In this document: positions 22,755 to 26,695 of the stretch, in pieces | How positions within the stretch are numbered: position 1 is the stretch's first letter | How the letters are laid out: each line of letters starts with the position of its first letter | IMG/VR virus record: IMGVR_UViG_3300011115_000261 | Location: 1-35,597 of that record | Direction: 5' to 3' (one strand) | Source: a virus | DNA length: 35,597 nucleotides | Notes under the pieces: model-generated | What the model saw: only the letters and a program-made list of their open reading frames with translations | Database searches by the model: none | What the model was told of the DNA's origin: nothing | Position numbers and translations under genes: made by a program

Positions 22755-24977
22755 GTGACCCTCATGTCGGATAATAAGACCGAAGACCAGAAAACGCAAT
22801 CAAATCCTGAACAAATCAGGCAGTTCTTTAACTACATTACGCAGGGTTGGGATGAACTTTGGGTGCGCTGGGCCGACATAAACGCCGAGCCGCTGATCGA
22901 ATTGCGCTGCATCAGCAGCAACCGAGGCGTGAACGTGCAGCGCTTTGCTGTCGGCCAGATCGACGATGCCGTGCAACACGCAGAAGCCATGAATAAGCAC
23001 GGGCAAAACGTGTACATGTGCATCAACCCGATCGACGGGCGCGCTGTGATACCAGCCGGCAAGGCCGCCACAGATAAAGACATCCTCGCCGCCATGTTCT
23101 GCTTTGCAGATGCCGACACGGATGGATCAATGGCGAACGTGCTGTCATTCGCCGGCCCGAAATTTACGATGAGCGTCAAGACCGGCACGACGCCTTACGT
23201 CCGAGGCCATGCCTACTGGCAGCTGGAAGAACCGTGCATCAACCTCGATGCATGGCGCCAGGTGCAGGCCAGCATCGCGGCCAGCCTTGGCACTGATCCG
23301 GTCGTGATCAACCCAAGCCGGATCATGCGTGTCGCTGGCACAATCAGCTACCCGAACAAAGACAAGCAGGGCCGTGGCTACATCCAAGAGATGGTCACGA
23401 TGCGCACGGAATTCAGCAGCGACCGTGACCCTGTGCCTTTTGAGCGCATGATGCGGGCATTCCCGCCCACACAGCGCAGCAGCTCGGCCACCACAGCCGG
23501 CATCCAGATCGACCTGGGCCAGCAGGCGATGGACCGAGCAATGGCAGAGGCCGAGATCCTGACCGGCAAGGATTGGCATCACAACGTCGTGCGCCTCATT
23601 GCCTCATACGTCAGCCGTGGCCTGTCCGACACAGAGATCCACGCCCTGACCGATCGCCTCACACTGCCAGGCTATACGGTCGAGGACACCAGACGAGAGG
23701 TGCAACAGGCAATCGACGGCGCGAGATCAAAGGGATGGACGCCTGAACCTGACACAATCCAACAGAAGATGGACGTGCAAGTGCCAGCGGTGGCACAGCA
23801 ATTCGATGCGCCCAAGGTAGACGTTGCGCAGCCGACGTGGCCGACGCCGATCGAGGACTTCAACCCGCTCAACCTGCCCCGCAGACACTGGATCTATGGG
23901 CGCACCTACATCAGATCCTACGTCAGCCTCACGGCGTCGGCCGGTGGCATTGGCAAGACCAGCCTGACGATGGTCGAGGCGGTGGCAATCGCAACGGGGC
24001 GCAAGCTCTTAGAGCAAGACGTACATGAGCGCACAAAGGTCTGGGTGATCAGCCTTGAAGACCCGCGCAGCGAGGGTCTGCTACGCCTTGCGGCCATCAT
24101 GCAGCATTACAATGTAAAGCACGAAGACTTGGCGGGTTGGCTGTTCCTCGATGGGGAAGATGACATCAGGATCACCCTGGCCGCCGAGACACGAGAAGGT
24201 GTGACAGAGAACGACGCCCTGCTTGAGTACATGATCAACAAGGTCAAGACGCTGGGCATCGGTGTCGTGATCATGGACCCGCTGATCGGCGCGCACCAGG
24301 TCAACGAGAATTCCAATATGGCCGTGCAGGTGGTGGTTGCCATGCTGCGCAGGCTGGCAAGGGAAACCGGCGCATCTGTGCATCCAGTGCATCACATCCG
24401 CAAGGGCAATGGAGAAGACGCCGGCGTTGACAGTGTACGCGGCGCCAACGCCTTGATCGGGGCAGCACGGGCAGCGCGCGTCCTCAACAAGGTGTCCGAA
24501 GAACAGGCAGAGAAGCTCGGCCTAGAGGGCGACGCAGGCAAGGGCCTGTTCCGCATAGACGATGCCAAGGCCAACCTCGCAGCGCCATCAGACAAGGCCA
24601 CCTACATGCAGACCATCGGCGTACAGATCGCCAATGGCGAGTACATCGCAGTTGTCGTGCCGGTCACCCTGCCCGATGCATTCGAAGGCGTGACAGCAGA
24701 GGCCGCGATGAAGGTGCAGCGCATGATAGGTCAGGCCGATGATGATCCCTACAGAGAAAGCAGCCAAGCCAAGAGATGGGCCGGCCATGCCATTGGTGAG
24801 CTGCTTAACATCGACACGACAGAGAAGGCAGGCAAGGGCCGCGTGTCGCTGATCATCAAGCAGTGGGTCAAGACAGACGTGCTGCGGATTGAGAAGATGC
24901 TGGACGCACGGCAGGGCCGAGAGACAGCCATTTTGATCGTGGGAACATGGATCAATAGGGATGAGGCAGGGCTGTGA
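22755..24977 (+). CDS. PrimPol-type primase fused to RepA-like helicase, 740 aa
   Basis: Residues about 60-225: archaeo-eukaryotic primase fold signs, D119-x-D121 (FADADTDG), H152 (RGHAYW) and D181 with NPSRIMRVAGTISYPNK, as in PrimPol-like phage and plasmid primases. Residues 260-335 are a helical linker domain (WHHNVVRLIASYVSRGLSD). Residues about 385-590: RecA/RepA-like hexameric helicase with Walker A GGIGKTS (397-403), Walker B VVIMD (504-508) and HH 546-547. GTG 22755 is preceded by GAGGAAGAGG; ATG 22764 is the alternative. It primes and unwinds DNA at the replication fork; with no phage DNA polymerase gene in the unit, it must recruit the host enzyme or use its own PrimPol activity. 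Confidence 0.85.
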   Translation: MTLMSDNKTEDQKTQSNPEQIRQFFNYITQGWDELWVRWADINAEPLIELRCISSNRGVNVQRFAVGQIDDAVQHAEAMNKHGQNVYMCINPIDGRAVIPAGKAATDKDILAAMFCFADADTDGSMANVLSFAGPKFTMSVKTGTTPYVRGHAYWQLEEPCINLDAWRQVQASIAASLGTDPVVINPSRIMRVAGTISYPNKDKQGRGYIQEMVTMRTEFSSDRDPVPFERMMRAFPPTQRSSSATTAGIQIDLGQQAMDRAMAEAEILTGKDWHHNVVRLIASYVSRGLSDTEIHALTDRLTLPGYTVEDTRREVQQAIDGARSKGWTPEPDTIQQKMDVQVPAVAQQFDAPKVDVAQPTWPTPIEDFNPLNLPRRHWIYGRTYIRSYVSLTASAGGIGKTSLTMVEAVAIATGRKLLEQDVHERTKVWVISLEDPRSEGLLRLAAIMQHYNVKHEDLAGWLFLDGEDDIRITLAAETREGVTENDALLEYMINKVKTLGIGVVIMDPLIGAHQVNENSNMAVQVVVAMLRRLARETGASVHPVHHIRKGNGEDAGVDSVRGANALIGAARAARVLNKVSEEQAEKLGLEGDAGKGLFRIDDAKANLAAPSDKATYMQTIGVQIANGEYIAVVVPVTLPDAFEGVTAEAAMKVQRMIGQADDDPYRESSQAKRWAGHAIGELLNIDTTEKAGKGRVSLIIKQWVKTDVLRIEKMLDARQGRETAILIVGTWINRDEAGL

Positions 24978-25156
24978 ATGCGTAGTAAATATGCTTCCTC
25001 ACCTTGTGTTTTTAGGTGAGGAAAACCTGAGGAAGAGTGAGGTAAAATACCTACCAATCCTTTCCTCCTCGCCCCCCCTATATAGGGGGTGAGAGGTAAG
25101 GAGGTTAAGGTGGTGAGTGAGATAGTGAGGTGAGGTTGACATGAGGAGAAGACATC
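24978..25156 (+). other. Iteron-like non-coding region, candidate replication origin
   Basis: 180 bases between the PrimPol-helicase gene and the next gene. GTGAG occurs seven times on the plus strand (25016, 25037, 25089, 25113, 25117, 25125, 25130) plus CCTCAC in the hairpin at 24997. A perfect 16-bp palindrome CCCCCTATATAGGGGG lies at 25074-25089 inside a longer imperfect inverted repeat (about 25049-25118), and 25085-25150 is almost all purine with T. Clustered short repeats next to a replication initiator-helicase are typical of iteron origins. It may also act only as an mRNA leader. Confidence 0.45.
24995..25023 (+). terminator. 10-bp perfect hairpin after PrimPol-helicase
   Basis: TTCCTCACCT (24995-25004), loop TGTGTTTTT, AGGTGAGGAA (25014-25023). 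It begins 18 bases after the stop codon. The loop rather than the tail is T-rich. Possible terminator in both directions, or part of the origin-like region. Confidence 0.5.
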
Positions 25157-25738
25157 GTGACAGACAAAAGACCGCAGCGGCCAAAGCGTGAGAGAAAGTC
25201 GGATCGGCTCATCCATCCTGGCGCCACGGCAAATCAAATCAAGTGTGACTTCGCGCTTGCACCCTTCGACAAGGTAGCCAGAGACATGGAGCATCGGTGG
25301 GGTGTTGATCGGCTGGTGGAGCTTGTGCCAACAGAGACGGCGGCCAAGTACGGATCGGCCATGGCAAAGCTCAATGCGGCGATCGATGCGGAAGATCCAG
25401 ATGAGATAGCGGCAAGAGCATCGGTATGCATTAGGGGCATGCAGCTGATGGATCAAGTTGCCACGCAGAGCCACGGAGAGCCGCCCACAGCGCAGGTCTG
25501 GGTGGTGGACGCTGATGGGTATAGCTTTGGGCTGATGCGTGACGGTAGGGCTTGGCAGAGGGCGCAAGAAGCCTATCCAGATCTTGAGCTGATCACCGAG
25601 CGGCAGATGGTCTTGGCGCTGACCATGTACAAGCACAGCCTCGCCAAAGAAATGATTGATGCTGCCAAGGCAGCCTTTCCAAAGACAGAGATCACGGCAA
25701 TCACAAACCAAGGGATAGATGATGCAATACCTTTCTAA
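25157..25738 (+). CDS. Uncharacterised replication-region protein with SSB-like C-terminal tail, 193 aa
   Basis: GTG start with GAGGAG upstream. Basic N-terminus (DKRPQRPKRERKSDRL), a central helical part (about 35-100, KVARDMEHRWGVDRLVELV, NAAIDAEDPDEIAARASVCIRGM), a short beta segment (QVWVVDADGYSFGLM), then helices to the end. The last residues are GIDDAIPF, very close to the SSB tip DDDIPF that docks many genome maintenance enzymes. No family recognised. It overlaps the next gene by 20 bases. Possible role: loader or adaptor that binds host SSB-interacting proteins, or a decoy. Confidence 0.6.
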   Translation: MTDKRPQRPKRERKSDRLIHPGATANQIKCDFALAPFDKVARDMEHRWGVDRLVELVPTETAAKYGSAMAKLNAAIDAEDPDEIAARASVCIRGMQLMDQVATQSHGEPPTAQVWVVDADGYSFGLMRDGRAWQRAQEAYPDLELITERQMVLALTMYKHSLAKEMIDAAKAAFPKTEITAITNQGIDDAIPF

Positions 25739-26000
25739 AGCACAGGCGGCGCTAGAGCAGGCGTCCAGCCTGATCAATGGTCCGAGGCAAGAGGCCTACG
25801 GATCACCCAACGAAAACTTTGAACGCCTGGCAGTAAGGATCAGCCAGATCGTCAAGGCGCCAGTGACCAAGCGCCAGGCTGCACAGATCATGGTGGAGCT
25901 GAAGCTTGCACGTCTCGCTCACTCGCATCACGAAGACAGCGTGATCGATGCAATAGCCTACCTGGCATTGATGATGGAGCTGACCGATGAACCCGCTTGA
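25719..26000 (+). CDS. DUF6378-like phage protein, 93 aa
   Basis: Carries the pattern RQEAYGSPNENFERLAVRIS, VTKRQAAQIMVELKLARLAH and EDSVIDAIAYLALMMEL in order, the arrangement of the DUF6378 family of phage proteins. The all-helical acidic/His pattern recalls MazG-like nucleotide pyrophosphohydrolases, and a link to nucleotide metabolism has been suggested on that basis; not proven. ATG codons at 25719 and 25722 are both possible. Overlaps the next gene by 14 bases. Confidence 0.7.
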   Translation: MMQYLSKAQAALEQASSLINGPRQEAYGSPNENFERLAVRISQIVKAPVTKRQAAQIMVELKLARLAHSHHEDSVIDAIAYLALMMELTDEPA

Positions 26001-26247
26001 AGCATGGCGCATGTCGAAAGGCATGTCATACGTCGACATCGCAGATCGCCTTGGCCGCAAGAACATGCGGCAGATCACGCAATGGTGCAAACCATACAAT
26101 GATCCAGACTATCTCAAGCCTGAGCTAGAGGTGCAAAACCACATCCAGATGATGACGTTGGGCGAGGTATCGCCAAATGCTTGGCGAGATCGGCAGATTG
26201 ATGTATCATCTGCAAAAGCCATTGGGGGTTCAAATGGGCGGAAATAA
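25987..26247 (+). CDS. HTH protein before terminase, 86 aa
   Basis: Residues 1-35 form a helix-turn-helix (MNPLEAWRMSKGMSYVDIADRLGRKNMRQITQWC), Xre-like. The rest is a helical tail (LEVQNHIQMMTLGEVSPNAWRDR). It overlaps the terminase small subunit gene by 14 bases. Likely a regulator, perhaps of the late genes, or a DNA-binding helper for packaging. Confidence 0.6.
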   Translation: MNPLEAWRMSKGMSYVDIADRLGRKNMRQITQWCKPYNDPDYLKPELEVQNHIQMMTLGEVSPNAWRDRQIDVSSAKAIGGSNGRK

Positions 26248-26695
26248 CAAAGGCAAGTCAGTCAAGGTCACCAAGGCAATCATGGTTGAGGTGGCTGACC
26301 GCTTGGGTGCAGGTGAGAACCTGCTGCAGATTGTCGAAAGCGACAACATGCCAAGCTATCGAGCAATCACGTCAGCTGTGATGCGTGACGATGAATTCTT
26401 TCTACTCTACCGCGAAGGACGTGTGCGCCAAGCAGAGTGGCACTCAGATCGCATCAACAAGCTGGCAACAGAGCCACTGCCGACGCACCATGCCGATGGC
26501 TCGCCATGCGATGGGCGTTGGCTTGGCGCTGAGATCCAGCGGCGCAAGCTTGAGATCGAGACGCTGCGCTGGACGTTGGCACGGTCGCAGCCGCATGGCA
26601 TTAGAGACAAGCGTGAGGACACCCCCCAAGCCCAATCGATTACGATTAGCTGGGCTGGTGGTGACACGGCGATCGATGCAAAAGCGGTTGATTGA
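26234..26695 (+). CDS. Terminase small subunit, 153 aa
   Basis: Start at ATG 26234 (GGGGG seven bases upstream) trims an extension that overlaps the HTH gene. Residues 12-60 form the HTH with the usual pattern VADRLGAGENLLQIVESDNMPSYRAITSAV and DDEFFLLYREGRVRQAEWHSD; residues 85-125 (GRWLGAEIQRRKLEIETLRWTLARSQP) give the oligomerisation helices, and the GIRDK end matches family members. It recognises the phage DNA packaging start and hands it to the large subunit encoded next. A hairpin follows the stop. Confidence 0.82.
   Translation: MGGNNKGKSVKVTKAIMVEVADRLGAGENLLQIVESDNMPSYRAITSAVMRDDEFFLLYREGRVRQAEWHSDRINKLATEPLPTHHADGSPCDGRWLGAEIQRRKLEIETLRWTLARSQPHGIRDKREDTPQAQSITISWAGGDTAIDAKAVD

Follow-up and report, generated by a model that had tools for sequence, protein, structure and literature searches.

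The alpha protein of P4 is primase, helicase and origin binder at once and works together with iterons. A comparison with P4 alpha/ori is given in PMC4234260. RSF1010 oriV contains iterons plus hairpins, and its primase starts at the hairpins (PMC4234260). In pRN1, ORF904 is an AEP-helicase-winged-helix initiator and the origin lies immediately downstream of its gene; this replicon has a 100-bp stem-loop and, according to its authors, is without iterons (PMC4234260). PrimPol-PV1 proteins of the PrimQH / All3500 type have the order AEP, helicase and winged helix (WH), and recognition of the origin by the WH tail of a PrimPol-helicase is put forward there as a suggestion only (Kazlauskas 2018, PMC5862659). 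The iterons of lambda and of Stx phages are neither equal in number nor alike in sequence (PMC7466680). In geminiviruses, the position and pattern of the iterons are conserved and the words diversify with the cognate Rep (PMC12548392).

The window, a stretch of 35,597 nucleotides from a virus record, contains podovirus-like genes for head and tail. At both ends an open frame continues past the edge, as expected for a circular or permuted map. Between the stop of a 740-aa ORF and the GTG start of a 193-aa ORF, there is a gap of 179 bp (24978-25156). This segment is likely to be an iteron-type replication origin of a marine phage, read by the C-terminal winged-helix domain of the primase-helicase that is encoded upstream. 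The original prediction had named the gap as a candidate origin, and an iteron-type origin beside a PrimPol-helicase gene is indeed the best explanation. Where cultured relatives share this gene order, an ssDNA-binding protein is annotated directly upstream of the helicase.

The 740-aa primase-helicase (22755..24977, + strand) was identified through Pfam (AAA_25), PHROG primase/helicase families, a PDB sequence match (1G8Y), folds and an AF2 model. It has an AEP (PrimPol) fold at about aa 1-330 and a RepA-type RecA helicase core at about aa 365-640. The AEP primase fold matches 3H20 and 6ZP9 (E about 1e-8). The RepA-type RecA motor matches the 1G8Y profile (RSF1010 RepA, E 3.9e-15) and the folds 1OLO/1NLF. 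The fold agrees with the PrimPol-helicase call made from the letters, and the top solved matches are the RSF1010 RepB' primase, RSF1010 RepA and the cyanophage S-2L PrimPol. The AF2 model has a mean pLDDT of 72 and a low pTM (0.36), so the placement of the domains is unsure. A PriCT domain between the AEP domain and the motor had no Pfam match, and aa 256-325 are helical in the model. At about aa 645-740 (24687..24974, + strand), AF2 gives a winged-helix-like C-terminal domain, which is proposed as the iteron reader from the model and from covariation with the repeated word. It is modeled with helices at 648-659, 676-683 and 691-706 and a beta hairpin at 710-716/723-729. The predicted topology is that of a winged helix, with pLDDT of about 78-86 and residue 720 at the wing turn. 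The Arg719-Gln720 codons (24909..24914, + strand) encode the predicted wing tip, the proposed reader of the A in TGAGG.

The phage protein is like RSF1010 in having a RepA-type hexameric helicase and a RepB'-type AEP primase, as judged by the top fold matches. RSF1010, however, splits the steps among RepC, RepA and RepB', whereas the phage protein would combine the three functions in one polypeptide. Its putative reading domain is the helicase's own C-terminus, and its 10-bp words are both direct and inverted. No RepC-like match was found for the genes around the array in general family searches (Pfam, PHROG). With the PrimQH / All3500 type it shares the order AEP, RepA-type ATPase and winged-helix C-terminus, the last being predicted here; it differs in that a PriCT domain was not recovered by Pfam, and in that the target sequence and the reading residues are now proposed from covariation. 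It resembles pRN1 in domain order and in the putative origin just downstream of the replication gene, but pRN1 has an SF3 helicase and the phage protein a RecA/RepA-type motor. P4 alpha has a bacterial (Toprim) primase and other iterons than the phage array. Lambdoid O, as is proposed for the phage protein here, is a phage-encoded initiator that binds iterons beside or within its own gene, as described in the available text of PMC7466680, where a residue-to-base rule was not found. O is unrelated and recruits host DnaB, whereas the phage protein carries its own motor and primase. Geminivirus Rep belongs to rolling-circle replication in plant ssDNA viruses and has no homology to the phage protein; it serves as an analogy only.

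Seven GTGAG units had been reported in 119 bases of the gap. They are present at 25016-25134, with starts at 25016, 25037, 25089, 25113, 25117, 25125 and 25130. The region was dinucleotide-shuffled 2000 times; the mean count was 0.8 and seven was never reached. GTGAG density across the window has its maximum at the gap. By the shuffles and the site scan, the repeat cluster beside the putative initiator gene exceeds chance. Comparison with relatives indicates that the real repeat unit is longer than GTGAG, namely a 10-bp iteron with the consensus AGGTGAGGAA. The window has nine iteron-like sites on the + strand and one on the - strand; two are exact and eight are weaker, several of these degenerate. 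The exact copies of AGGTGAGGAA, one inverted (24995..25004, - strand) and one direct (25014..25023, + strand), coincide with the arms of the perfect 10-bp inverted repeat noticed at the outset. Two further iterons, ACCTGAGGAA and GAGTGAGGTA, lie at 25025..25044 (+ strand), and the block of three direct copies is also found in relatives. The 16-bp palindrome, CCCCCTATATAGGGGG, was likewise found where it had been seen (25074..25089) and is AT-centred. In relatives its letters vary, its symmetry is mostly retained and inverted words stand at its flanks. The mean symmetry score is 7.8 versus 4.8 for shuffled sequence, in a scan that often chose an inverted iteron pair instead. The right half of the array (25087..25137, + strand) consists of GGGTGAGAGG, TGGTGAGTGA, GAGTGAGATA, TAGTGAGGTG and AGGTGAGGTT, which are partly degenerate iterons. 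A word-like ACATGAGGAG (25139..25148, + strand) overlaps the likely Shine-Dalgarno of the 193-aa gene.

The AT content is 53% in the gap, 59% in its left half and 41-43% in the flanks. The purine bias of the strand is real but modest (104 of 179 bases). GC skew had been suggested as a check, and the detrended minimum at 23932, about 1.1 kb from the array, is compatible with an origin; this evidence is weak because most of the larger genes sit on one strand. Searches for Rfam RNAs and for tRNAs gave none. A sigma-70-type scan gave no promoter in 24600-25500, and a terminator or sigma-70 promoter was rejected as a reading of the site after the scan.

IMG/VR was scanned with the helicase, the 193-aa protein (p193) and alignments of each, and this gave 109 distinct contigs with a p193 homolog. 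At least three copies of one listed word were found within 250 bp upstream of this homolog in 99 of the 109. A scan of genome contigs beyond IMG/VR added only five distant loci, in MAGs. The common layout, shared by more than 100 related IMG/VR contigs, begins with one or more inverted words, about 15 bp, usually three direct words and about 20 bp. It continues with an inverted word joined to the AT-centred palindrome, and further direct words come after. The word often differs between relatives, and nearly all copies within one array agree. Core words include TGAGG, TGTGG, TGCGG, TGGGG, TGTAGAA and TGTATGA, among others. The words found include AGGTGAGGA, AGGTGTGGA, AACTGTGGA, AAGTGTGGA, TGTAGAAA, TGTATGAAA, TGTAGGAA and GTGTAAAA, as well as TGTAGTTT, TGGGGA, TGTCTGG and others.

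Several loci depart from this layout. An inserted gene or a long spacer divides the array in L012, L035, L101, L136 and L144. In these five, p193 or the inserted gene is closely preceded by a second long, G+C-rich hairpin, which has the word of the main array (TGAGG, TGGGG or TGCGG) at its base. In L135, L156 and L072, TGTAGGA and TGTATGA are mixed in one array, a possible intermediate or dual specificity. In L056 the gene order is rearranged, with array and p193 upstream of the helicase and still together. L020-L032 have a further word, CAGTGGCGCA, and the helicases upstream of it are of the same RecA type but have another N-terminal part. In L203 and L242, helicase and p193 are separated by an inserted phosphoadenosine-phosphosulfate-reductase-like gene; the array adjoins p193 in L242, and no array was seen in the 900 bp read of L203. 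A gene with this annotation also follows p193 in CRP-821 and CRP-831 (L317, L319).

The word family tracks the RecA/C-terminal half of the helicase, while the PrimPol half and p193 are common to word families. One RecA type pairs with NTGNGGA words and another with TGTAxxA words. Helicases that were at least 90% identical over aa 1-640 were compared in pairs. Identity over aa 665-740 was 91% for the same word (n=126) and 60% for different words (n=30). For p193 in those pairs, it was 95% and 88%. On the tree of aa 1-640, at least 19 changes of word class are needed. Close relatives diverge most, within the helicase, over the last ~100 residues. By these alignments, the word goes with the last ~75-100 residues of the helicase, and not with the PrimPol part, p193 or the small terminase.

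The genes that follow the array were also explored. The p193 gene (25157..25738, + strand) is conserved beside the array; Pfam, PHROGs and NCBIfam gave no name for its protein, and a fold search gave no significant match. The small terminase (TerS) gene is at 26177-26695, about 1 kb downstream of the array. TerS of the window is about 76-79% identical to that of L003/L004, and most neighbours are at 90-99%, which makes it a second fast-evolving DNA-binding protein, perhaps with a changing packaging site. An 86-aa protein (25987-26247) has a weak match to a KorB domain. It was rejected as the reader: the words of L003/L006 are different, yet the protein is still 90-92% identical there.

Within the helicase, the wing tip is the part that best predicts the word. 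In the first 64 sequences, Gln720 was present if and only if the word was TGAGG, and this was the sole such column of 740. New contigs were then gathered for the code, one search using 80 matches listed of 529 candidate loci. In held-out sequences, Gln720 separated A from not-A correctly in 43 of 44, the best of 375 columns; the next-best column was right in 39 of 44 and always calling not-A in 35 of 44. The new contigs added Asp/Asn with TGCGG, and Lys-His, Lys-Lys and Ala-Lys with TGGGG. A two-residue rule (719, 720) for the middle base of TGNGG fits 103 of 105 sequences, which are not independent of one another, and its C and G parts were formulated after seeing some test loci. By this rule, Gln goes with A, Asp/Asn with C, Ser/Thr/Ala with T, and Lys-His, Lys-Lys or Ala-Lys with G; for Lys, His and Arg at 720, the base call depends on context. 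The exceptions are L222 (Arg-Gln but G) and L271 (Arg-Arg but T). The code table omits L024-L026, L138 and L203, where TGNGG counts came from coding sequence or the word was different, and the rule was not applied to L020-L032, where the wing is unalignable. The tree of aa 366-640 requires at least 22 changes of the middle base and 21 of the wing class. Seven of eight independent pairs for A were concordant (sign p 0.016), these eight being the only A-pairs on well-supported branches. The base before TG tracks residue 671 (Gln with G in 64/64, Arg with C in 36/40), and the second base before TG tracks residue 669. Gln-A and Asp-C are classic side-chain/base pairings with known contact preferences.

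In the near-minimal pair L213/L222, helicases and downstream flanks are almost the same, yet TGAGG has given way to TGGGG in nearly every word. Their helicases have 7 aa differences in 373 aligned residues, and 5 of these fall within the last 63. Both have Gln at 720, and therefore other residues must carry this word change. In L222, compared with L213 and L215, one TGAGG is left among the TGGGG copies, like an unfinished word switch. Cultured Roseobacter phages have PrimPol halves only about 19% identical to the window's, with the same pattern of word and tail. The helicases of CRP-821 and CRP-823 are 97.8% identical over aa 1-640 and 70% over the last 100 aa, and their array words are TGTATAAA and TGTAGTTT, respectively. 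CRP-811 and CRP-823 have a common word and tails that are 98% identical. A text search of PMC12629253, the paper describing these roseophages, turned up nothing on intergenic regions, repeats or a primase.

The coupling of word and domain, as seen in sequence, shows the domain to be the reader of the word but does not by itself make the site an origin, since it would look similar for an operator. Iteron-binding initiators often serve both replication and the control of transcription. It is possible, if unlikely, that the array is a transcriptional operator by which the primase-helicase represses or times the downstream 193-aa, terminase and structural genes, and that replication starts elsewhere. 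The array does lie upstream of this gene block in the reading direction, and covariation with the C-terminal domain would be identical. The promoter scan described above speaks against it, as does the array keeping to the helicase where genes are inserted before p193 or p193 is ~800 bp off (L012, L035, L020-L023). The fusion of the putative reader to a primase and a replicative motor also suggests loading. Physical linkage could mimic the coupling, since the C-terminal codons adjoin the array and both can therefore be co-inherited by recombination as a cassette without functional contact. The great divergence of the last ~100 residues among close relatives would fit this. As the whole explanation, mere linkage is quite improbable; it explains part of the coupling, but not the uncoupled p193, contiguous on the other side, nor the single wing-tip column that exceeds all others, even those closer to the array. 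The Gln-A and Asp-C agreement is a further point against it, and L213/L222 switched word and domain without replacement of their flanks.

Other proteins might read the array. Small terminases recognise repeated sites close to the genes that encode them, and TerS evolves fast here. A pac site read by TerS is nonetheless very improbable and was rejected, as TerS does not covary with the word. At the 90% background, TerS is 96% identical for the same word and 91% for different words, against 93% and 61% for the helicase domain; in addition, TerS of L052, which has a quite different word, is nearer to the window's (86%) than that of L007, with the same word (75%). The original prediction had offered both the helicase and the 193-aa protein as readers. 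The helicase part stood, by covariation of its C-terminal domain with the word. The p193 gene begins right after the array in most relatives, but p193 is an extremely improbable reader and was rejected, being near-constant while the word changes. It is 98% identical among the window, L003 and L004, each of which has a word of its own. Its best column predicts the word in 83% of loci, versus 100% for helicase 720, and no DNA-binding fold was recognised in it.

An origin read by the helicase is thus the preferred reading. The array, its constant layout, the concerted changes of word and the link between word and C-terminal domain are results of the computation; from them we infer physical binding, origin firing, and melting and priming at the palindrome. 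The C-terminal winged-helix domain would bind the repeated 10-bp word: the wing tip (719/720) would recognise the middle base of TGNGG, and residues 669/671 are the probable readers of the two positions that precede TG. Once bound along the array, the protein would load its RepA-type hexameric motor at the AT-centred palindrome, and priming would then fall to the fused AEP domain. A single polypeptide would cover the tasks that RSF1010 divides among RepC, RepA and RepB'. With a change in the specificity of the domain, nearly all copies of the word would be replaced, and phages would come to differ in the address of their origins.

There are precedents for iteron origins, for co-diverging initiators and for AEP-RepA-WH proteins. 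The literature searched, which was mostly non-subscription, contained no case in which a wing reads the word base by base and this specificity is rewritten across the arrays of related phages. On balance, we lean towards the view that a large marine phage group has a self-loading PrimPol-RepA initiator with a near one-residue-per-base wing code, whose origin addresses have been repeatedly rewritten, leading to replication incompatibility. With all iterons rewritten at once, related phages would be unable to use each other's origins, and single base words would be the units of this incompatibility system. Natural variation is the basis on which target, reading domain and reading residues are all proposed, and each can be tested directly. 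If the proposal is true, it would raise the question of what makes replication addresses diverge so quickly among near relatives, which has also been posed for the iterons of geminiviruses (PMC12548392). Escape from satellites, competitors or cross-initiation are possible causes. The origin word of many uncultured phages would be predictable from one protein, and these phages would offer a natural panel of compact replicons with different addresses.
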